Of a stretch of 54,196 bases of DNA, positions 23,274 to 52,033 are shown in pieces. The notes beneath the pieces are model-generated. The model made no database searches. It was given only the letters and a program-made list of their open reading frames with translations, and was not told the origin of the DNA. The stretch is taken from IMG/VR virus record IMGVR_UViG_3300034407_002255, positions 1-54,196 of that record; one strand, 5' to 3'. Source of the stretch: a virus. Numbering within the stretch: the first letter of the stretch is position 1; every line of letters starts with the position of its first letter. The position numbers were made by a program, and so were the translations under genes.

Positions 23274-24235
23274 TGGCGTCTGTTCGTCCTTTATATCAAA
23301 GTTCTGGTAATTTATTTGAAATGACTGACGGTGAAATTACCCAGTGGAGGACCATTGCTCAGTTTGGTTATGCTGCAAGTCCAACTGCTGTTTTAACAGT
23401 TGTGTCAAACAGTGGTGCGTTAATTGATGGTATGAGCGATACAAGATTACAAGCTGGTTCTGCATCACAAGCAGCTGCTTCATTCGTTGCAGAGGGTAGT
23501 ACTGCTGAACCAAGTACAGTTACCGTTGCATTTGATAAAATTAATCTCGCATATACTGCAAGTGGAAGTATAAGTAAAACTGCTGATTCTGGCACCAGTT
23601 ATCCAGTATATTATGACAGCTCAGCAGGAGCAGTTCGAGCGATGAGCCTAACTGATTTGTTGGACACATTTATTCATCCTCAAGTTGATAATATGATTGC
23701 TGCAACTGAGTCCGATGCGACAGCAGGAACATATACGATAAACACAGCAACCTCGGTAGGAGGATACACAGAGGTTTCTGGAGCAAACACAGCAGTTTTT
23801 ATTGATACGAGAGCCAATACGGGTGCATATTCTGCTGCTGGTATTCCAGAAACTTTAGATCAACCCACAACTGTTCAAAACTACTATCTCCATAGAAGAA
23901 ATCTTTCTGATCCCGGCGATGCTGATAGAACTCCGTTGTTTATTAATGGTGACAATGACTTACAAGAATTTGTTCAGGCGGATATGGATTCGTTACTAGC
24001 AGGGTGGTTAAGATTTACAGCGGCACATTCTACTGATGGTTATAAAATAACTTATTCTGTGGGAACATCTGGAAGTGGTAATGTTCGTGGGTCAACAATG
24101 ACAGATACGAAGTTAGATGGCTCTGGAAATTATCAAACACTTCAAGCCGGAGTTGACGATTATAGATCACAAGAATTTCCCAATGGTTCTGCTGCAACTA
24201 TCAACTCGTATAATCTAAGAATAAATAAGTCATAA
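23273..24235 (+). CDS. virion structural protein, fibre-associated
   Basis: A 320-residue protein beginning MASVRPLYQSSGNLFEMTDGEITQW, then beta-rich Ala/Ser/Thr sequence. The middle includes DLLDTFIHPQVDNMIAATESDATAGTYTI and YYLHRRNLSDPGDADRTPLFIN, and the C-terminus is QEFPNGSAATINSYNLRINKS. I recall proteins with this start and end from marine T4-like tail regions, but no activity is known. It overlaps the fibre stop by one base (TAATG) and ends at the late-promoter variant for the next gene, so it is the last gene of the fibre unit. Tail fibre hinge or baseplate-attached role is inferred. Confidence 0.6.
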   Translation: MASVRPLYQSSGNLFEMTDGEITQWRTIAQFGYAASPTAVLTVVSNSGALIDGMSDTRLQAGSASQAAASFVAEGSTAEPSTVTVAFDKINLAYTASGSISKTADSGTSYPVYYDSSAGAVRAMSLTDLLDTFIHPQVDNMIAATESDATAGTYTINTATSVGGYTEVSGANTAVFIDTRANTGAYSAAGIPETLDQPTTVQNYYLHRRNLSDPGDADRTPLFINGDNDLQEFVQADMDSLLAGWLRFTAAHSTDGYKITYSVGTSGSGNVRGSTMTDTKLDGSGNYQTLQAGVDDYRSQEFPNGSAATINSYNLRINKS

Positions 24236-24238
24236 ATA
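24231..24238 (+). promoter_or_regulatory. late promoter variant CATAAATA before the accessory cassette
   Basis: CATAAATA overlaps the stop codon of the structural gene (TAA 24233-24235) and lies 19 bases before the ATG at 24258, with GTAGGAG at 24241-24247 as ribosome site. It is the only late-type element I see before the enzyme cassette, so it could transcribe all of 24258-32231. Confidence 0.65.
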
Positions 24239-24257
24239 GGTGTAGGAGAAATGAATT

Positions 24258-24851
24258 ATGGCATATGAAGGTAAAGAGACTGACGCATATTTTGAGAATG
24301 GTGAACCCAAGTTCCCATTTGTTGGTCAAATTGTGGAAGCGTACTACACTGATCCAGAGTTGAAACACATTTGTATTGTTTACAACTATAAAGTTCCAGA
24401 AGATGGTGTTCACACAGATCGTGATGGAAACCCTAATGGTGGACAAATTGATACCACAGTTTATAATATTATGATTGAAGATAAAGAAGACGAGCGTCTT
24501 CTTGCTTTGTTGGAAGAGTTTAGTTGGGAAGCCATTGACGAATGCACAAGGACTCGTCACGAAAACCATAGACAAGAATTTAGAGATGCATTTCATCGTT
24601 ACGCCACCGAAAACAATATGTACGGTCATGGACTAGATGCGGGCTTTAAAGATGAAACACAAGGGAGTTTAGAAATATTATTTAATTATGATCCCGATAA
24701 CTCTGAACATAAAGAAGCGTTGTTCAAATTAAAATTGAGAATGTTTGAGGTGCCGGAAGTGAAAGAGAGTAGGAAGAAAAAAGCAAAAGCTGAAATCCGT
24801 AAGTCAGATACTCCAGTTCAGGCTGTAAAGGCATTCGCATCATTCTTTTAA
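24258..24851 (+). CDS. hypothetical protein heading the accessory cassette
   Basis: A 197-residue acidic protein of unknown function. It contains FPFVGQIVEAYYTDPELKHICIVYNYKVP, a small beta-barrel-like stretch, then DEDERLL-type helices (EDKEDERLLALLEEFSWEAIDECTR) and a Lys-rich C-terminus. No catalytic motif, signal peptide or membrane segment is visible. It has its own late-type promoter and may belong with the tail genes upstream rather than with the enzymes downstream, from which it is separated by six bases. Confidence 0.6.
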   Translation: MAYEGKETDAYFENGEPKFPFVGQIVEAYYTDPELKHICIVYNYKVPEDGVHTDRDGNPNGGQIDTTVYNIMIEDKEDERLLALLEEFSWEAIDECTRTRHENHRQEFRDAFHRYATENNMYGHGLDAGFKDETQGSLEILFNYDPDNSEHKEALFKLKLRMFEVPEVKESRKKKAKAEIRKSDTPVQAVKAFASFF

Positions 24852-24857
24852 TAACAT

Positions 24858-25445
24858 ATGAACAAACCAATCTTTATAGATTTTGGTTGTGGTCCAAATA
24901 CAAAACACTTAATCAGATATAGAAAAAAAGGTTATTATGTAATTTCAGTTGACAGGTCTGAACAAGATTTATATGAAAACTCAGACATAAAAGATATTAG
25001 TTATTACGAACTTGTGTCTGACGAAATATCTTTCTTTGACATAACAGACCTTTCAAAGAAAACAAATTATCCAGCTGATGTGTGGAATTGTGGCGCTGTT
25101 ATGGAACACATTGAACCAAACCAAATAGACCCGTTTCTATATGGCATCAAAAATAATTGCAAAAAAGGATCACGGGGAGTCATATATATAGATTTAACAG
25201 ATCATTTTGGTGGGTTTGATCATCGTGTTAACCCAGAAAAATATAATCATTTTATTAAAAATGCGTATGAAGAAATAGAGTGGTTCGATATTATAGGAAG
25301 ACATTTTGAAATAGAAGAGTGGTGGCGGCGTTTTAAATCAAATATTTCTTCAGAGGGTTTTGTTACAATTAGAGGCCCAAAGAATAAATTTCAAATTTCA
25401 AACTCTGGTAACTGTATAGCACTCTCATTTTATGTTTTTGTGTGA
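24858..25445 (+). CDS. class I SAM-dependent methyltransferase
   Basis: A 195-residue methyltransferase-like protein. FIDFGCGPNTKHL (about residues 6-18) is a textbook SAM-binding motif I, VISVDRSEQDL supplies the acidic residue of motif II, and FDITDL followed by DVWNCGAVMEHIEP fits motifs III-IV (NCGAVMEH is the usual position of the xxEHxxP-type catalytic loop). The C-terminal third lacks known substrate domains. First enzyme of the cassette; its stop lies beside the glycosyltransferase start. The acceptor could be a sugar, peptide or small molecule. Confidence 0.72.
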   Translation: MNKPIFIDFGCGPNTKHLIRYRKKGYYVISVDRSEQDLYENSDIKDISYYELVSDEISFFDITDLSKKTNYPADVWNCGAVMEHIEPNQIDPFLYGIKNNCKKGSRGVIYIDLTDHFGGFDHRVNPEKYNHFIKNAYEEIEWFDIIGRHFEIEEWWRRFKSNISSEGFVTIRGPKNKFQISNSGNCIALSFYVFV

Positions 25446-45444: not shown

Positions 45445-46878
45445 ATGTCCGAATTAGATAAAACCATTGAGGAGCTTGAAGCAGAGGTTCTGGCGGAACT
45501 AGAAGAAGCCAGTCAACCAGATGATACTGGTGGACCCGCTGATACTCCTAAAAAAGTAAAATCTGATGGGGTAACTAAAGAAGAAGACGGTGGAAAAGCC
45601 GTTGTTGACCCAGAAGAAAAATCATCCCCCACGGATGTTGCAACAAAAAGTGCAAAAGAAGTTAGTGGAGATGCACAACAGAAGAGTGAAGGAGCCCCAG
45701 AAAAAATGGCTAAACTCAAAAAGGTAAAAGAAGAAATCGGTTACACCGATGACGAGATTAGAGAACTTTGCCATTCTGAGGACCATGACTGCGCTGTAGT
45801 TGTGGAACATCCAGTTTGGGGCAAAGGTAAACCAATTTATGCTTCTCATGCAATGCCTGACGAAAACGGTCACGTTGAGTGGTACGATGTGCAGTTCAAG
45901 CATGGTATCGAAGAAAAAGTCATGGTAGAAGACATGGAAGTCATCGAAGAATCTTCTCATATGGGAGAGGAGCCAAAGACTAAATCAGCTCTCATGGCAG
46001 CAATGCATAAAGAAATGAAGCACATGAAGAAAGAACAACTTCGTGCTGCATATGAGATGATGATGAAGCCAGAAGGTGCTCACGAATCTGTTGAAGATGC
46101 AGAGTTGAAGAAACTCAAGTCAGAGAAAGCAGAGATCGAAGAGAAGATCAAAGCAATTAGTGTTAAAGAAGACGTTGAAGCACTTGTGGAAGGTGAAGAC
46201 CTTACAGAAGAGTTCAAGGAAAAAGCTGCAACAGTGTTTGAAGCAGCAGTTAAGTCTAGAATTCGTAGTGAAATTGAGCGTATGGAAGAAGGTTACGTTG
46301 ATTCACTTGCAGAAGCTACTCACGTTATTAAAGAGGAGTTGTCAGAAAAAGTTGATGACTATCTCGGTTATGTCGTTGAGCAATGGATGCAAGAGAACGA
46401 GTTGGCAATCGAGCGTGGCTTGAAGGGTGAAATTGCCGAGGACTTCATTGTTGGTCTGAAACAATTGTTTGAAGACCATTACATTGATGTTCCTGACGAG
46501 AAATATGACGTTCTAGAGGCTCAGGCTGAGAAGATCACTGAGCTTGAAGAAAAACTCAACGAGACTATTGAAGAAAACGTTGAGAAAAAGAAAGTGGTAG
46601 AATCTCTGTCGAGAGAAAAAGCAATCGCAGAAGCTTGTTACGATCTTGCTGAGACAGAAACAGAGAAGTTTTCTTCTCTTGTCGAAGACGTAGAGTTTAC
46701 TGACGAAGAGTCTTTCGCAGAGAAACTTAGCACATTGAAAGAGAGCTACTTTCCTAAAACTGGTGGAGAAGGTTCTTTTGTAATTGATGATGATAATGGT
46801 GAAACTGCACAGGACATTGATGCGACTGATACGATTAGATCGTACATGTCGGCAATCAGTCGGTCAAAAAGTGCATAA
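45445..46878 (+). CDS. gp22: gp22-like prohead scaffold protein
   Basis: A 477-residue major scaffold protein, well above T4 gp22 (269). It is very rich in Glu and Lys with long coiled-coil stretches (LKKLKSEKAEIEEKIKAI, ITELEEKLNETIEENVEKKKVVESL). Central marks are FKEKAATVFEAAVKSRIRSEIERMEE and VDDYLGYVVEQWMQENELAIERGLKGEIAEDFIVGLKQLFEDHYIDVP, which match gp22. The N-terminal 200 residues (QPDDTGGPADTPKK, then HPVWGKGKPIYASHAMP...YDVQFKHG, an SH3-like bit) are extra compared with T4. Removed by gp21 during maturation. Confidence 0.9.
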   Translation: MSELDKTIEELEAEVLAELEEASQPDDTGGPADTPKKVKSDGVTKEEDGGKAVVDPEEKSSPTDVATKSAKEVSGDAQQKSEGAPEKMAKLKKVKEEIGYTDDEIRELCHSEDHDCAVVVEHPVWGKGKPIYASHAMPDENGHVEWYDVQFKHGIEEKVMVEDMEVIEESSHMGEEPKTKSALMAAMHKEMKHMKKEQLRAAYEMMMKPEGAHESVEDAELKKLKSEKAEIEEKIKAISVKEDVEALVEGEDLTEEFKEKAATVFEAAVKSRIRSEIERMEEGYVDSLAEATHVIKEELSEKVDDYLGYVVEQWMQENELAIERGLKGEIAEDFIVGLKQLFEDHYIDVPDEKYDVLEAQAEKITELEEKLNETIEENVEKKKVVESLSREKAIAEACYDLAETETEKFSSLVEDVEFTDEESFAEKLSTLKESYFPKTGGEGSFVIDDDNGETAQDIDATDTIRSYMSAISRSKSA

Positions 46879-46918: not shown

Positions 46919-48268
46919 ATGTTTCAAACAGAACATCTACAAGAAAAGTGGCAGCCAGTCCTAGAACACCCCGATCTTCCTAAGATTGAGGATTCCTATC
47001 GCCGTGCAGTCACAACTGTTATCCTTGAGAACCAAGAGAAGGCTCTCAGAGAAGATCGTGCGTTCCTTTCGGAAGCCGCTCCCACTAACAGCACTGGTGG
47101 TTCGATTGACAATTGGGACCCGATCCTGATTTCGCTCGTTCGCCGTGCAATGCCAAACCTGATTGCGTATGATATCTGTGGCGTCCAGCCGATGACTGGT
47201 CCTACAGGTCTTATCTTCGCAATGCGTGCTTCGTTCCTGTCTTCGGACGGTGCAGAAGCGTTGGTTGACGAAGCTTTGCCTGGTAAACAGGGTGCTTCTA
47301 ACCAGAACGCCGCCGGTACAACTGGTGGTGGCGATGTTGGTGCTACAGAGACAAACCCTGCCGTTCTGAACGACAGTCCTTCTGCTGGTACTTACACAAG
47401 TGCAACTGGTATGACAACTGCTCAAGGTGAAGCGCTGGGTGATACATCCACAAACGCTTTCGCTGAGATGGCGTTCTCCATCGACAAGTCAACCGTTACG
47501 GCGGTGACTCGTGCTCTGAAAGCTGAGTACACGATGGAACTTGCTCAAGACCTCAAAGCGATCCACGGTCTGGACGCTGAGACGGAACTTGCGAATATCC
47601 TGTCTTCGGAAATTCTTGCTGAAATCAACCGTGAAGTAGTTCGCCGTGTTTATGTTGCTGCTGTTAAAGGCGCACAGGTTAACACAACGACTGCCGGTAT
47701 CTTCGACTTGGACACAGACTCCAATGGTCGTTGGTCGGTTGAGAAGTTCAAGGGTCTGATGTTCGGTATTGAGCGTGATGCCAATGCGATTGGTCAACAG
47801 ACTCGCCGTGGTAAAGGTAACATGCTGATGTGTTCTGCTGACGTTGCGTCTGCTCTGCAAATGGCTGGTATCCTTGACTACACCCCGGCTCTCAACAACA
47901 ACTTGAATGTTGATGACACAACGACAACTTTCGCTGGTGTTCTTAACGGACGCTACAAAGTGTACGTTGACCCGTATGCCGCTAACGTTGCTGCTTCGCA
48001 GTACTACGTTGTTGGTTACAAGGGAACATCCCCGTATGACGCTGGTATGTTCTACTGCCCATACGTTCCTCTTCAGATGGTTCGTGCGGTTGGTGAGAAT
48101 ACCTTCCAGCCGAAGATTGGCTTCAAGACACGTTACGGAATGGCTGCGAACCCATTCGCTCAGACTGCTGGTGCGGTTGCGGCGGGTGACTCGCAGAACA
48201 CCGATGCGTCGATTGACGATGGCGTAAACGTTTACTACCGTCGAGTAAAAGTCACCAACCTTATGTAA
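46919..48268 (+). CDS. gp23: gp23-like major capsid protein
   Basis: A 449-residue major capsid protein with HK97 fold (T4 gp23 is 521). Signature pieces: NWDPILISLVRRAMPNLIAYDICGVQPMTGPTGLIFAMRA, KSTVTAVTRALKAEYTMELAQDLKAIHGLDAETELANILSSEILAEINREV, and VYVDPYAANVAASQYYVVGYKGTSPYDAGMFYCPYVPLQMVRA. L50-S-E52|A53 in FLSEAAPTN fits the gp21 (I/L)xE cleavage rule, so the mature protein probably starts at A53. Codons are strikingly C/G-ending compared with neighbours. Followed by a strong terminator. Confidence 0.96.
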   Translation: MFQTEHLQEKWQPVLEHPDLPKIEDSYRRAVTTVILENQEKALREDRAFLSEAAPTNSTGGSIDNWDPILISLVRRAMPNLIAYDICGVQPMTGPTGLIFAMRASFLSSDGAEALVDEALPGKQGASNQNAAGTTGGGDVGATETNPAVLNDSPSAGTYTSATGMTTAQGEALGDTSTNAFAEMAFSIDKSTVTAVTRALKAEYTMELAQDLKAIHGLDAETELANILSSEILAEINREVVRRVYVAAVKGAQVNTTTAGIFDLDTDSNGRWSVEKFKGLMFGIERDANAIGQQTRRGKGNMLMCSADVASALQMAGILDYTPALNNNLNVDDTTTTFAGVLNGRYKVYVDPYAANVAASQYYVVGYKGTSPYDAGMFYCPYVPLQMVRAVGENTFQPKIGFKTRYGMAANPFAQTAGAVAAGDSQNTDASIDDGVNVYYRRVKVTNLM

Positions 48269-48323: not shown

Positions 48324-48331
48324 TATAAATA
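48324..48331 (+). promoter_or_regulatory. late promoter TATAAATA before the tail gene at 48350
   Basis: Perfect late octamer directly after the terminator T-run, 18 bases before the ATG, with AAAGGAAAA at 48337-48345. Confidence 0.8.
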
Positions 48332-49948: not shown

Positions 49949-50580
49949 TTGATGTGGTTGATGAAAATGAAAAAAATGTAGAGATATCATACGAGGAGTA
50001 TGCAGCGTTTCCCACTATGGTTTATAAATTTAAATCTAAGTTGCCTGTGGTGGATCACATACAAATGGCACAATGGATTAAAAGACAAAAAGAAGCAGAG
50101 GGTCAGGTAGTTCAGACAGAGGGCGATTTATACAAGTTGTCTTATTTTAGACCTTTAGTTGAGACGACAAAACAAGTGAGTGCTGAAATTTTACAAAAGT
50201 TAGGTTACAAGTATGACAAGCTTGAGATGACAGGTATGTGGGGAAACTATCTATCAAATGGTCAGACACACCCGCCGCACACACATTCAAATAATGTGTT
50301 ATCTGGTGTTTATTATGTGGAGTCACAAAAGGGCGCATCTCCTATACAATTTTTTGATCCTAGGCCCATAGCCCATCATCTGAAACCAGTTAACCGTCCA
50401 AACTGGGAGAATGCGGGAATGGTACAATTTGATGCTGAACAAGGGACAGGTATAATTTTTCCATCTTGGTTGCAGCATTGGGTGCCACCTACGCAAACAG
50501 ATAGAGTGAGTGTTTCTTGGAATATAATTCCTAGAGGGCACTATGGTTCGATCTCTGAATACCAGTATGCTCATATCTAA
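49936..50580 (+). CDS. 2OG-Fe(II) oxygenase (PF13759-like)
   Basis: A 214-residue protein of the 2OG-FeII_Oxy_5 type. H115-T-H117 in HPPHTHSNNVLSGVYYVES is the standard metal motif and strand, FFDPRP is conserved, and GIIFPSWLQHWVPP (H181) with R190 in TDRVSVSWNI complete the site. It matches the family better than the gene at 2210. The start is ATG 49936 with GGAG at 49923-49926, and a longer in-frame ATG at 49921 lacks a ribosome site. It overlaps uvsW by 38 bases if uvsW starts at 50543. Confidence 0.82.
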   Translation: MADVIDVVDENEKNVEISYEEYAAFPTMVYKFKSKLPVVDHIQMAQWIKRQKEAEGQVVQTEGDLYKLSYFRPLVETTKQVSAEILQKLGYKYDKLEMTGMWGNYLSNGQTHPPHTHSNNVLSGVYYVESQKGASPIQFFDPRPIAHHLKPVNRPNWENAGMVQFDAEQGTGIIFPSWLQHWVPPTQTDRVSVSWNIIPRGHYGSISEYQYAHI

Positions 50581-52033
50581 GAAAAATGAAGTTTACATCG
50601 TACTTAAAGATGTTGAACTTTCAACTGCTGCAGAGTTGAATGATTTTTTTACCTTTGAAGTTCCTGGCTTCAAATACATGCCTGCTTATAGAAATAAAAT
50701 GTGGGACGGTAAAATACGTCTGTATAATATTGTCACAGGTGAAATCTATATGGGACTTCTCCCATATATAGAAGAGTATCTTAAAAATAATGGTGAATAC
50801 TATGAATTGGCAGACGGAATCAGAAGTGAAAGAGACATTGCCCCAAGTGTGGTGCAAGGGTTTGTGCGAGGACTTAGACCCACTCTCAATGGACGAAGAA
50901 TTAAAGTACGAGATTATCAAATTGATGCCATTGCCCACGCTATTGCCGCAGATCGTTCTCTTCTTATTTCTCCTACTGCTTCCGGTAAGTCGTTAATAAT
51001 ATATTGTCTTGTTCGATACTATCAAATGATGGAACTGAAAACTTTGATACTAGTTCCAACAACTTCTCTTGTCGAGCAAATGTATAAAGATTTTGAAGAC
51101 TATGGTTGGAGCTCTGGAACATACTGTCAAAAAATATATCAAGGTTACGATAGAAAAGTTGAAAAGGATGTAGTCATATCAACTTGGCAATCTATACACA
51201 GAATGCCTAGACAATACTTTAGACAGTTTGGTGCAGTGTTTGGTGATGAAGCACATTTATTTAAGGCAAAATCTCTGACAGGGATTATGACAAAGTTAGA
51301 TACTTGCAAATATCGTTTTGGTTTGACAGGTACATTGGATGGAACACAAACACACAGATTAGTTTTGGAAGGATTATTCGGTAAAGCAAAATATGTAATT
51401 ACAACTAAAGAGTTGATAGATAATAAAACTCTATCTGAATTAAAAATAAATTGTATAGTTCTAAAATATCCAGATGAGGATATACAAATAGCAAAGGATT
51501 TTGATTACCATGAAGAACTGGAATACATCGTCACTAAGACTGAAAGGAATAATTTTTTATGCAAGCTTGTGGGTCATTGCAATGGGAACACTCTCGCTCT
51601 TTTCCAGTTCGTAGAAAAACATGGTGAACCATTATATAAGTTAATAAAAGATAAATATAAAGATAGAAAAGTTTTTTTTGTTTATGGAGGAGTGAACACA
51701 GATACCAGAGAACATATAAGGGAGATTGTAGAAAATGAAGAAAATTCAATCATCGTTGCAAGTTACGGTACGTTTAGCACTGGGATTAATATTCGGAATA
51801 TTGATAACATCGTGTTCGCAAGTCCCTCAAAAAGCAAAATCAGAGTGCTTCAGTCTCTTGGGCGTGGCTTGCGCCGTGGGGATAAGAGCGAAAGCCTCCG
51901 AGTCTTTGACATCTCCGATGACCTTACCAGTGAATCCTCTCGGCTCAATTTTACGTTAAGACACTTTCAACAAAGACTAAATATTTACAAGGAACAGAAT
52001 TTTAATTTCAAAATAGATAAGGTAAAACTATGA
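50543..52033 (+). CDS. uvsW: UvsW-like DNA/RNA helicase
   Basis: A 496-residue SF2 helicase (T4 UvsW is 503) that remodels branched DNA and unwinds R-loops to end origin-dependent replication. N-terminal: ELNDFFTFEVPGFKYMPAYRNKMWDGKIRLYN. Helicase motifs: SPTASGKS (Walker A, about 143-150), VPTTSLVEQM, GDEAH (about 234-238), GLTGTLDG, IVASYGTFSTGINIRN and VLQSLGRGLRRG (motif VI). ATG 50543 follows AGAGGG; ATG 50567 is an alternative closer to T4 in length. Codons 397-472 have abnormal GC and codon choice where another frame (51735-51959) is open. Confidence 0.94.
   Translation: MVRSLNTSMLISKKNEVYIVLKDVELSTAAELNDFFTFEVPGFKYMPAYRNKMWDGKIRLYNIVTGEIYMGLLPYIEEYLKNNGEYYELADGIRSERDIAPSVVQGFVRGLRPTLNGRRIKVRDYQIDAIAHAIAADRSLLISPTASGKSLIIYCLVRYYQMMELKTLILVPTTSLVEQMYKDFEDYGWSSGTYCQKIYQGYDRKVEKDVVISTWQSIHRMPRQYFRQFGAVFGDEAHLFKAKSLTGIMTKLDTCKYRFGLTGTLDGTQTHRLVLEGLFGKAKYVITTKELIDNKTLSELKINCIVLKYPDEDIQIAKDFDYHEELEYIVTKTERNNFLCKLVGHCNGNTLALFQFVEKHGEPLYKLIKDKYKDRKVFFVYGGVNTDTREHIREIVENEENSIIVASYGTFSTGINIRNIDNIVFASPSKSKIRVLQSLGRGLRRGDKSESLRVFDISDDLTSESSRLNFTLRHFQQRLNIYKEQNFNFKIDKVKL
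51735..51959 (+). CDS. nested candidate lipoprotein inside uvsW (+1-type overlapping frame)
   Basis: A 74-residue open frame fully inside uvsW. It encodes a positively charged start (MKKIQ), a hydrophobic segment (LALGLIFGILI) and ITSC at residues 24-27, which fits a signal-peptidase II lipobox. The mature part would be 48 residues from C27. GGAG lies at 51721-51724, ten bases upstream. GC content is 37 of 60 in 51841-51900, versus 19 of 60 in 51661-51720 and 13 of 60 in 51961-52020, and uvsW here uses codons rare elsewhere (ggg, cgc, cgg, ctc). This suggests selection on two frames. It might be an outer-membrane lipoprotein or o-spanin-like protein; no partner is seen. Confidence 0.5.
   Translation: MKKIQSSLQVTVRLALGLIFGILITSCSQVPQKAKSECFSLLGVACAVGIRAKASESLTSPMTLPVNPLGSILR

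Follow-up and report, generated by a model that had tools for sequence, protein, structure and literature searches.

Phage lipoproteins comparable to the putative nested gene product

Phage T5 Llp and Cor are small outer-membrane lipoproteins of superinfection exclusion, each with an intramolecular disulfide (Cys11-Cys58 in Llp), and the receptor is bound by Llp on the periplasmic side, according to the available part of the source (PMC9586334). Many exclusion proteins are described in the same part as early (PMC9586334). Lambda Rz1 and other embedded o-spanins are also small outer-membrane lipoproteins, whose genes lie out of frame within a larger one. In the portion of the spanin paper that is accessible, the embedded architecture is that of an o-spanin inside an i-spanin gene, periplasmic cysteines are common in o-spanins, the commonest pattern is two cysteines in the o-spanin and none in the i-spanin, and two cysteines are needed by the T4 o-spanin PseT.2 (PMC6139136). 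T4-type phages additionally possess a small uvsW-linked gene, uvsW.1, which lies downstream of uvsW in RB32.

The putative gene described here occupies the +1 frame of uvsW and would encode a small outer-membrane lipoprotein with an inferred disulfide, as in Llp and Cor. Its mature part is mostly shorter than theirs, its cysteines are only 7–8 residues apart and it is encoded inside uvsW. Unlike many exclusion proteins, it is probably late. It shares with the embedded o-spanins its out-of-frame position and, as predicted, periplasmic cysteines; unlike Rz1-type genes, it is housed in a replication/repair helicase gene and not in an i-spanin gene, and no partner was found among the open reading frames (ORFs) of the window. 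It is linked to uvsW as uvsW.1 is, but is nested.

The initial annotation of this DNA had proposed a nested membrane lipoprotein, and that proposal is strongly supported by the comparative tests below (stop avoidance, lipobox, cysteine pair and replication in further genes). We put the probability that 51735–51959 is a genuine overprinted gene encoding a lipoprotein at roughly 0.87; this figure does not extend to its function and rests on sequence comparison, there being no expression data. If correct, a clear overlapping gene has been overlooked by annotation across a large group of marine phages, and marine T4-like phages have a new candidate outer-membrane effector.

Relatives compared and controls

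The window, i.e., the whole stretch of DNA analyzed (54,196 bases), is an IMG/VR virus record which covers only part of the phage genome. A first scan of viral contigs supplied the best 80 uvsW relatives of a larger number of matches, and these were grouped by identity to the window as close (>70%, 25 genes including the window), mid (57–70%, 13 genes) and far (below that, 43 genes). The matches listed in four further scans, together with phage Melnitz-3, brought the collection to at least 401 loci, 23 of which were excluded as incomplete, broken or poorly covered. This left 378 genes and the window, of which 254 were non-redundant, and the addition of 12 named or record-level phages (RB32, JS98, one Vibrio phage, two pelagiphages, six cyanophages and one marine virus) gave a working set of 266 genes. 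No near-identical uvsW DNA was matched among named phages. Synonymous shuffles or identity clusters served as controls, and relatedness was not modeled.

A replication set was drawn from a further pair of viral scans plus a scan of genomes, which yielded 149 new loci, 147 of them complete and 69 non-redundant to the earlier genes. As these scans began from carriers of the nested frame, the shares found in them are not natural frequencies, and relatedness was left in the counts.

The nested frame and its composition

The nested frame is present as first described, with an ATG, an MKK start and the lipobox at residues 24–27 (Table 1), and it overlies what we take to be helicase motifs V–VI of uvsW. 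An ORF of at least 74 codons in the +1 or +2 frame was obtained in 6% of synonymous shuffles of the window uvsW alone (P = 0.06). The length of the frame in the window is thus not significant by itself and the case rests on the relatives. AlphaFold2 (27 sequences) returned a mean pLDDT of 59.8, with a helix at residues 3–29 at modest confidence; the signal helix alone was fair.

Table 1. Features of the uvsW locus in the window and of the spanin genes of phage Melnitz-3.
Feature	Coordinates	Strand	Remarks
Motif taken to be a T4-type late promoter, TATAAATA	48324..48331	+	Upstream of the gene run leading to uvsW; outside the nested gene
uvsW, SF2 DNA helicase, outer gene	50543..52033	+	496 aa; Pfam ResIII, UvsW_N, Helicase_C; PHROG_16 DNA helicase, E 1e-103
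Shine-Dalgarno-like AAGGGAG	51718..51724	+	GGAG ends 10 nt upstream of the nested ATG
Putative nested lipoprotein gene	51735..51959	+	74 aa; overlaps uvsW codons 398–472 in the +1 frame
Hydrophobic signal core, nested residues 12–26	51768..51812	+	Leu16 kept in 86/88 vs. 33% expected
Lipobox I-T-S-C, residues 24–27	51804..51815	+	Cys27 is the predicted lipid anchor
uvsW codons 423–425, ATC GTG TTC	51809..51817	+	Rare codons; nested frame reads S-C-S
+2 serine, residue 28	51816..51818	+	Ser in 83/88 vs. 21% expected
Mature Cys38	51846..51848	+	Position 38 or 39 among relatives
Mature Cys46	51870..51872	+	79/88 vs. 10% expected; requires NTG at uvsW L443 and CGN at R444
Melnitz-3 i-spanin (MZ577098.1, L415)	24173-24565		PHROG_739, 5e-17; annotated as hypothetical protein
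Melnitz-3 o-spanin (MZ577098.1, L415)	24528-24908		PHROG_812, 8e-15; annotated as hypothetical protein; overlaps i-spanin gene

A G+C anomaly had been reported over the frame, and the counts are exact: 37 of 60 bases at 51841–51900, as against 19 of 60 at 51661–51720 and 13 of 60 at 51961–52020. In 5000 synonymous shuffles of the window uvsW the patch at 51841–51900 contained 28.2 ± 2.4 G+C (P = 0.0002), so it is not explained by the amino acids of the helicase alone. The further claim that uvsW uses unusual codons there was broadly borne out by the counts inside and outside the overlap (CGC 1/0, CGG 2/0, TCC 2/1, AGC 4/1), while the statement that they are avoided elsewhere was too strong for GGG (3/3) and CTC (2/4).

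The open +1 frame could also be accounted for without any nested protein, if a local quirk of codon usage or composition around helicase motifs V–VI left it open and hydrophobic by chance. The G+C content at third codon positions (GC3) is indeed raised over the overlap. In the window uvsW it is 0.44–0.52 in three blocks of codons 401–475 and 0.12–0.28 in the other blocks, except for 0.48 at codons 326–350, and in the close relatives it also rises, to 0.40–0.45 at codons 401–475 and 0.36 at codons 326–350. Such values are not unique, as a GC3 of at least 0.47 was found in 1.5% of 13,939 75-codon stretches of the window (those of uvsW itself counted), with peaks in other genes of 0.56 (46919–48268), 0.50 (1041–1613) and 0.48 (45445–46878). 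The gene at 46919–48268, which synteny with Melnitz places where the major capsid gene would be, has an overall GC3 of 0.46, and the other genes of at least 100 codons range from 0.19 to 0.42. When the codons of the overlap itself were shuffled, the open frame was unremarkable in the window (P = 0.61) and in all close genes except L019 (P > 0.05), as the compositional account would have it. By sequence logic, T-ending codons moreover make +1 frames hydrophobic. In the far group, by contrast, several genes kept an open-frame P of <0.02 in the same shuffles.

Synonymous variation and stop avoidance

A drop in synonymous variation of uvsW over codons 397–472 had been predicted, and it is absent, which is again in keeping with composition alone. 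The observed/expected ratio was 0.96–1.27 in windows within codons 396–475 of the close group, and the lowest values in that group were found elsewhere in uvsW, at 0.73–0.80 (windows of codons 121–165) and 0.80–0.85 (codons 301–345). A third-base change in uvsW alters the second base of a nested codon, so the absence of a drop implies that most nested residues are loosely constrained. As judged from the aligned genes, constraint is confined to a few codons (423–425 and 443–444) plus the avoidance of stops. Of the features expected of overprinting, selection that acts on the second frame over and above what uvsW requires is present, while reduced synonymous variation, which is usual and not obligatory, is absent. 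Average synonymous conservation can overlook genes of this type, which stop-avoidance and motif tests detect.

Stops in the +1 frame were depleted at codons 397–445 in all three groups, with observed/expected ratios of 0.05–0.09 in the close and mid groups and 0.27–0.36 in the far group. Outside this region the far group gave 0.79–1.23 (windows outside codons 385–469), and the lowest value in the mid group was 0.50 (outside codons 385–457). The close group showed other dips at codons 97–145 (0.10–0.24) and 325–349 (0.02), as well as at 37–61 (0.00) and 49–73 (0.40), where few stops were expected.

The codon contexts of 35 non-redundant far genes separate stop avoidance from composition. NTA before a purine, which makes a stop, accounted for 12.3% of 285 cases in the overlap vs. 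36.4% of 2103 outside, whereas NTA before a pyrimidine, which is harmless, was found at 39.5% of 177 vs. 42.2% of 1326. NTG before A did not occur in 49 cases in the overlap vs. 28.5% of 687 outside. The avoidance in the far group is specific to stop-making contexts and occurs without raised GC3 there, which speaks against a compositional origin of the open frame. In 27 close and mid genes (L012 and L030, in which the motif is lost, having been excluded beforehand) NTA before a purine was found in 0 of 207 cases in the overlap vs. 43.2% outside. As NTA before a pyrimidine was also low in these genes (6.7% of 150 vs. 46.6%), their avoidance is not purely stop-specific, and composition or other residue needs must act as well.

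Lipobox and lipoprotein signal

Lipoprotein signals were sought by a strict rule, which required, besides a PROSITE-like lipobox and a start codon, a lysine or arginine close to the start and a run of hydrophobic residues. In the +1 frame it was met by 67 of the 266 genes including the window (63 at codon 424 and four at codon 420), as against 0.25 expected from gene-wide synonymous shuffles, and every other place in five alternative frames together gave 12 matches. The serine-cysteine pair encoded at codons 423–424 (S-C) was present in 88 of the 266 genes, 63 of which met the strict rule and 25 of which, Melnitz among them, failed it. Among 481 +1 sites in these 88 genes, the largest excesses were at Ser26 and Cys27, which define the set, followed by Cys46, Ser28 and Leu16 (Table 1). 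Serine at +2 predicts sorting to the outer membrane by the Lol rule.

The presence of the lipobox is tied to an open frame. Among 61 clusters at 75% identity, scored by a looser lipobox rule, 13 had both a lipobox and an open frame, none had a lipobox without an open frame, eight were open only and 40 had neither (Fisher P = 3e-8, clusters taken as independent). Per gene, the corresponding figures were 85, 3, 46 and 132 of the 266, with both features expected in 0.27 genes. In the three exceptions (L065, L164, and L165) the mature part is 23 aa long and ends inside the tested stretch. The association recurred among the 69 replication genes, where 57 had S-C and an open frame (0.35% expected), none had S-C without it, four were open only and eight had neither; 52 of the 69 met the strict rule. 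In several groups of genes (L039, L043, L044, L052, L053, L058, and others) the nested frame is open and hydrophobic without the lipobox cysteine, perhaps representing an unlipidated membrane form.

A different explanation would be that the codons are constrained by an element of the DNA or RNA, conserved around TCGTG[TC]TCGC (codons 423–425). The conservation of ATC GTG TTC in the close and mid groups is certainly striking: in 29 such genes not selected by motif, ATC was used for 25 of 27 isoleucines at codon 423 and GTG for 27 of 28 valines at codon 424. Such an element would leave unexplained that the Cys27 codon varies (TGT in 63 and TGC in 25 of the 88 genes), which indicates that the amino acid and not the DNA word is conserved, and that the frame is open around the sequence. 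At a distance of about 20 codons there is another conserved spot, at which cysteine is spelled by two adjacent codons and R444 is variable at its third base. A fixed element is further argued against by four distant genes of other lineages (L222, L229, L237, and L269), in which the frame is open and an LSGC or similar lipobox stands four codons earlier (codon 420), the sequence there being different. We regard this explanation as hardly tenable.

Cysteine pair and mature part

Cys46 was not used to define the S-C set (Table 1). Of the two codons on which it depends, NTG was found at uvsW Leu443 in 79 of the 88 genes and CGN at Arg444 in 84, with a variable third base in the latter. The cysteine at position 38 or 39 and Cys46 occurred together in 78 genes (3.3% expected), were both missing in seven and occurred singly in three. 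Within 34 residues after Cys27, 75 genes had two cysteines, seven had none, four had four, one had three and one had one. Similar figures were obtained for the 57 replication genes with S-C and an open frame, where both cysteines were present in 53, neither in three and C38/39 alone in one, and the number of extra cysteines was two in 54 and none in three. Joint presence or absence is what would be predicted for a periplasmic disulfide, for which there is no chemical evidence. The mature part is mostly 29–54 residues long (48 in the window), being 29 aa in 34 of the 88 genes and 29–32 aa in 62.

Neither the lipobox nor Cys46 nor the pairing of the cysteines is predicted by composition. In addition, 40 of the 48 clusters without a lipobox are not open, and three genes which have lost S-C (L012, L015, and L030) have ordinary codon use in the overlap, as local shuffles gave 3.9, 3.9, and 6.7 stops, respectively. 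A purely compositional origin is therefore considered very unlikely. An overlapping lipoprotein gene is favored since it is the sole reading which covers stop avoidance, the lipobox, the +2 serine, the cysteine pair, the ribosome sites and the association of the lipobox with an open frame. According to this comparative evidence, selection acts on the frame as well as on the lipobox and the paired cysteines; translation, lipidation, sorting and disulfide formation of the nested protein are inferred.

Start sites and expression

A start codon was present in the open frame 14–35 codons upstream of Cys27 in all 88 S-C genes, compared with 87% in shuffles. A start preceded by a Shine-Dalgarno sequence (at least 4 bases, 4–11 nt away) was found in 50 of the 88 vs. 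7.7 ± 2.3 expected (maximum of 15 in 200 shuffles), and 38 genes, including that of Melnitz, had none by the rule used. The ATG position of the window is barely conserved, with a start there in 34 of the 88 genes (39% vs. 32% expected), and the start shifts among lineages. At uvsW codon 394, which carries the Shine-Dalgarno sequence in genes near the window, the rarer GAG was used in 15 of 19 genes with glutamate at that position. As a positive control, AGG was found in 19 of 20 genes at uvsW codon 493, the ribosome site of the next gene.

The sequence TATAAATA, presumably a T4-type late promoter motif, occurs nine times in the window vs. 3.7 expected. Eight plus-strand copies lie 26–55 bases before an ORF start, as for T4-type late promoters. 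Late expression is likely, given the copy upstream of the genes leading to uvsW (Table 1). Translation of the nested gene remains an inference from these signals in the absence of transcript, ribosome or peptide data.

Lysis and the spanin genes of Melnitz

A role in lysis or envelope change had been suggested from the resemblance to outer-membrane spanins. Under such a reading the nested protein would be either an o-spanin or a small lipoprotein which aids lysis by weakening the outer membrane. Nested small lysis lipoproteins are known (Rz1 in Rz), the cysteine pair recalls the pattern of o-spanins outlined above and the requirement of PseT.2, and a late promoter motif lies upstream of the gene run. 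The outer-membrane lipoprotein signal expected of an o-spanin is met (by the sequence rule only), but the expected location in, overlapping or beside an i-spanin gene is not, the outer gene being a helicase, though separated pairs also exist. By a hydropathy rule, no ORF with a single N-terminal transmembrane segment was found among the 53 in the window, which covers the genome only in part. A mature part of 29 aa, as found in over a third of the S-C genes, is short for a lysis role, and the losses in several lineages suggest that the nested gene is dispensable.

The cultured phage Melnitz (host Methylophilales H5P1) is informative in this respect, since its nested frame has S-C and both cysteines and its genome has a separate i-spanin and o-spanin elsewhere (Table 1). 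The nested protein was considered as the missing spanin of Melnitz, a possibility weakened once this pair was located. In the available part of the Melnitz paper (PMC9004378) a spanin is mentioned once, namely the lambda one, and a role in lysis is proposed for the curli pore CsgGF. The periplasmic parts of the Melnitz pair contain no cysteine other than the predicted lipid anchor of the o-spanin, which leaves some room for a lysis protein with cysteines. The spanin suggestion has thus not been demonstrated and is weakened by the separate Rz/Rz1-type pair; we consider a lysis function unlikely. As Melnitz already has a spanin pair, the nested gene probably supplies an additional lipoprotein of the outer membrane.

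Proposed function

As an extra lipoprotein, the nested protein would be translated from its own start inside uvsW as a short secreted protein with a basic N-terminus, a hydrophobic signal and a lipobox, and would be lipidated at Cys27. Its mature part would be placed on the outer membrane by the +2 serine and would usually contain one disulfide, between Cys38/39 and Cys46. By analogy with T5 Llp or Cor, it may be a late accessory protein which binds, from the periplasmic side, a receptor or porin of the outer membrane and so blocks useless adsorption or superinfection. The small size, the likely disulfide and the loss in several lineages fit such a role. The function is unproven, and the assignment is tentative, with the odds somewhat against it.

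It is further conceivable, and on balance rather doubtful, that motifs V–VI of uvsW, which are among the most conserved parts of this replication helicase, have been overprinted repeatedly in marine T4-like phages. An unrecognized family of outer-membrane lipoproteins with a disulfide would then have persisted, disappeared and arisen anew (with the lipobox mostly at codon 424, at 420 in others), and would act late to mask receptors or exclude superinfection in phages which also have a normal spanin pair. As hardly more must be retained than a signal, a lipobox and two paired cysteines, a secreted protein could overprint a conserved helicase motif at low cost. The presence of the nested gene in a cultured phage, Melnitz, makes it testable.

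Losses, homolog searches and a second frame

Stops or loss of the ITSC motif in close relatives had been named as grounds for refutation. The frame and lipobox are kept in many relatives, and this part of the expectation stood; the refuting condition was met in the close relatives L012 and L015 (80–81% identity), where both the frame and S-C are lost. They are also lost in L030, L146–L148, and L354. Parsimony of the S-C state gave 17 changes on a 335-gene tree vs. 110 with shuffled labels, and the counts of gains and losses depend on the motif rule. None of the 12 added T4-like phages has the lipoprotein signal, and the +1 frame has stops at the nested site in RB32 and JS98. Eight T4-like uvsW genes on contigs of GTDB bacterial metagenome-assembled genomes (L639–L646; e.g., Chloroflexi and Rhodopirellula) are probably binned phage DNA. 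All eight are without S-C and give no clue to the host.

The nested protein of the window had no match in Pfam and a best E of 0.17 in PHROGs, and 27 members of the family gave nothing significant against either database, so that no match to Llp or Cor emerged from these libraries. Spanin families were among the matches without significance (PHROG_456, Rz-like spanin, in three of the 27 members with a best E of 0.24; PHROG_1275 in one member with an E of 0.17). In phage records, tblastn with the Melnitz nested protein retrieved only four Melnitz records and 12 weak uvsW or chance matches (E 3–10), and tblastn with that of L090 retrieved none. The four Melnitz records annotate the outer gene alone, three of them as “putative restriction enzyme subunit” and the fourth as “hypothetical protein”. 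No report of a lipoprotein gene overlapping uvsW was found in the open-access papers that were searched.

Another +1 frame lies within uvsW at 50790–50996. It encodes 68 aa with a hydrophobic C-terminal end in which no motif was seen, overlaps the codons of low synonymous variation (121–165), and is open in most relatives above ~76% identity and broken in others.
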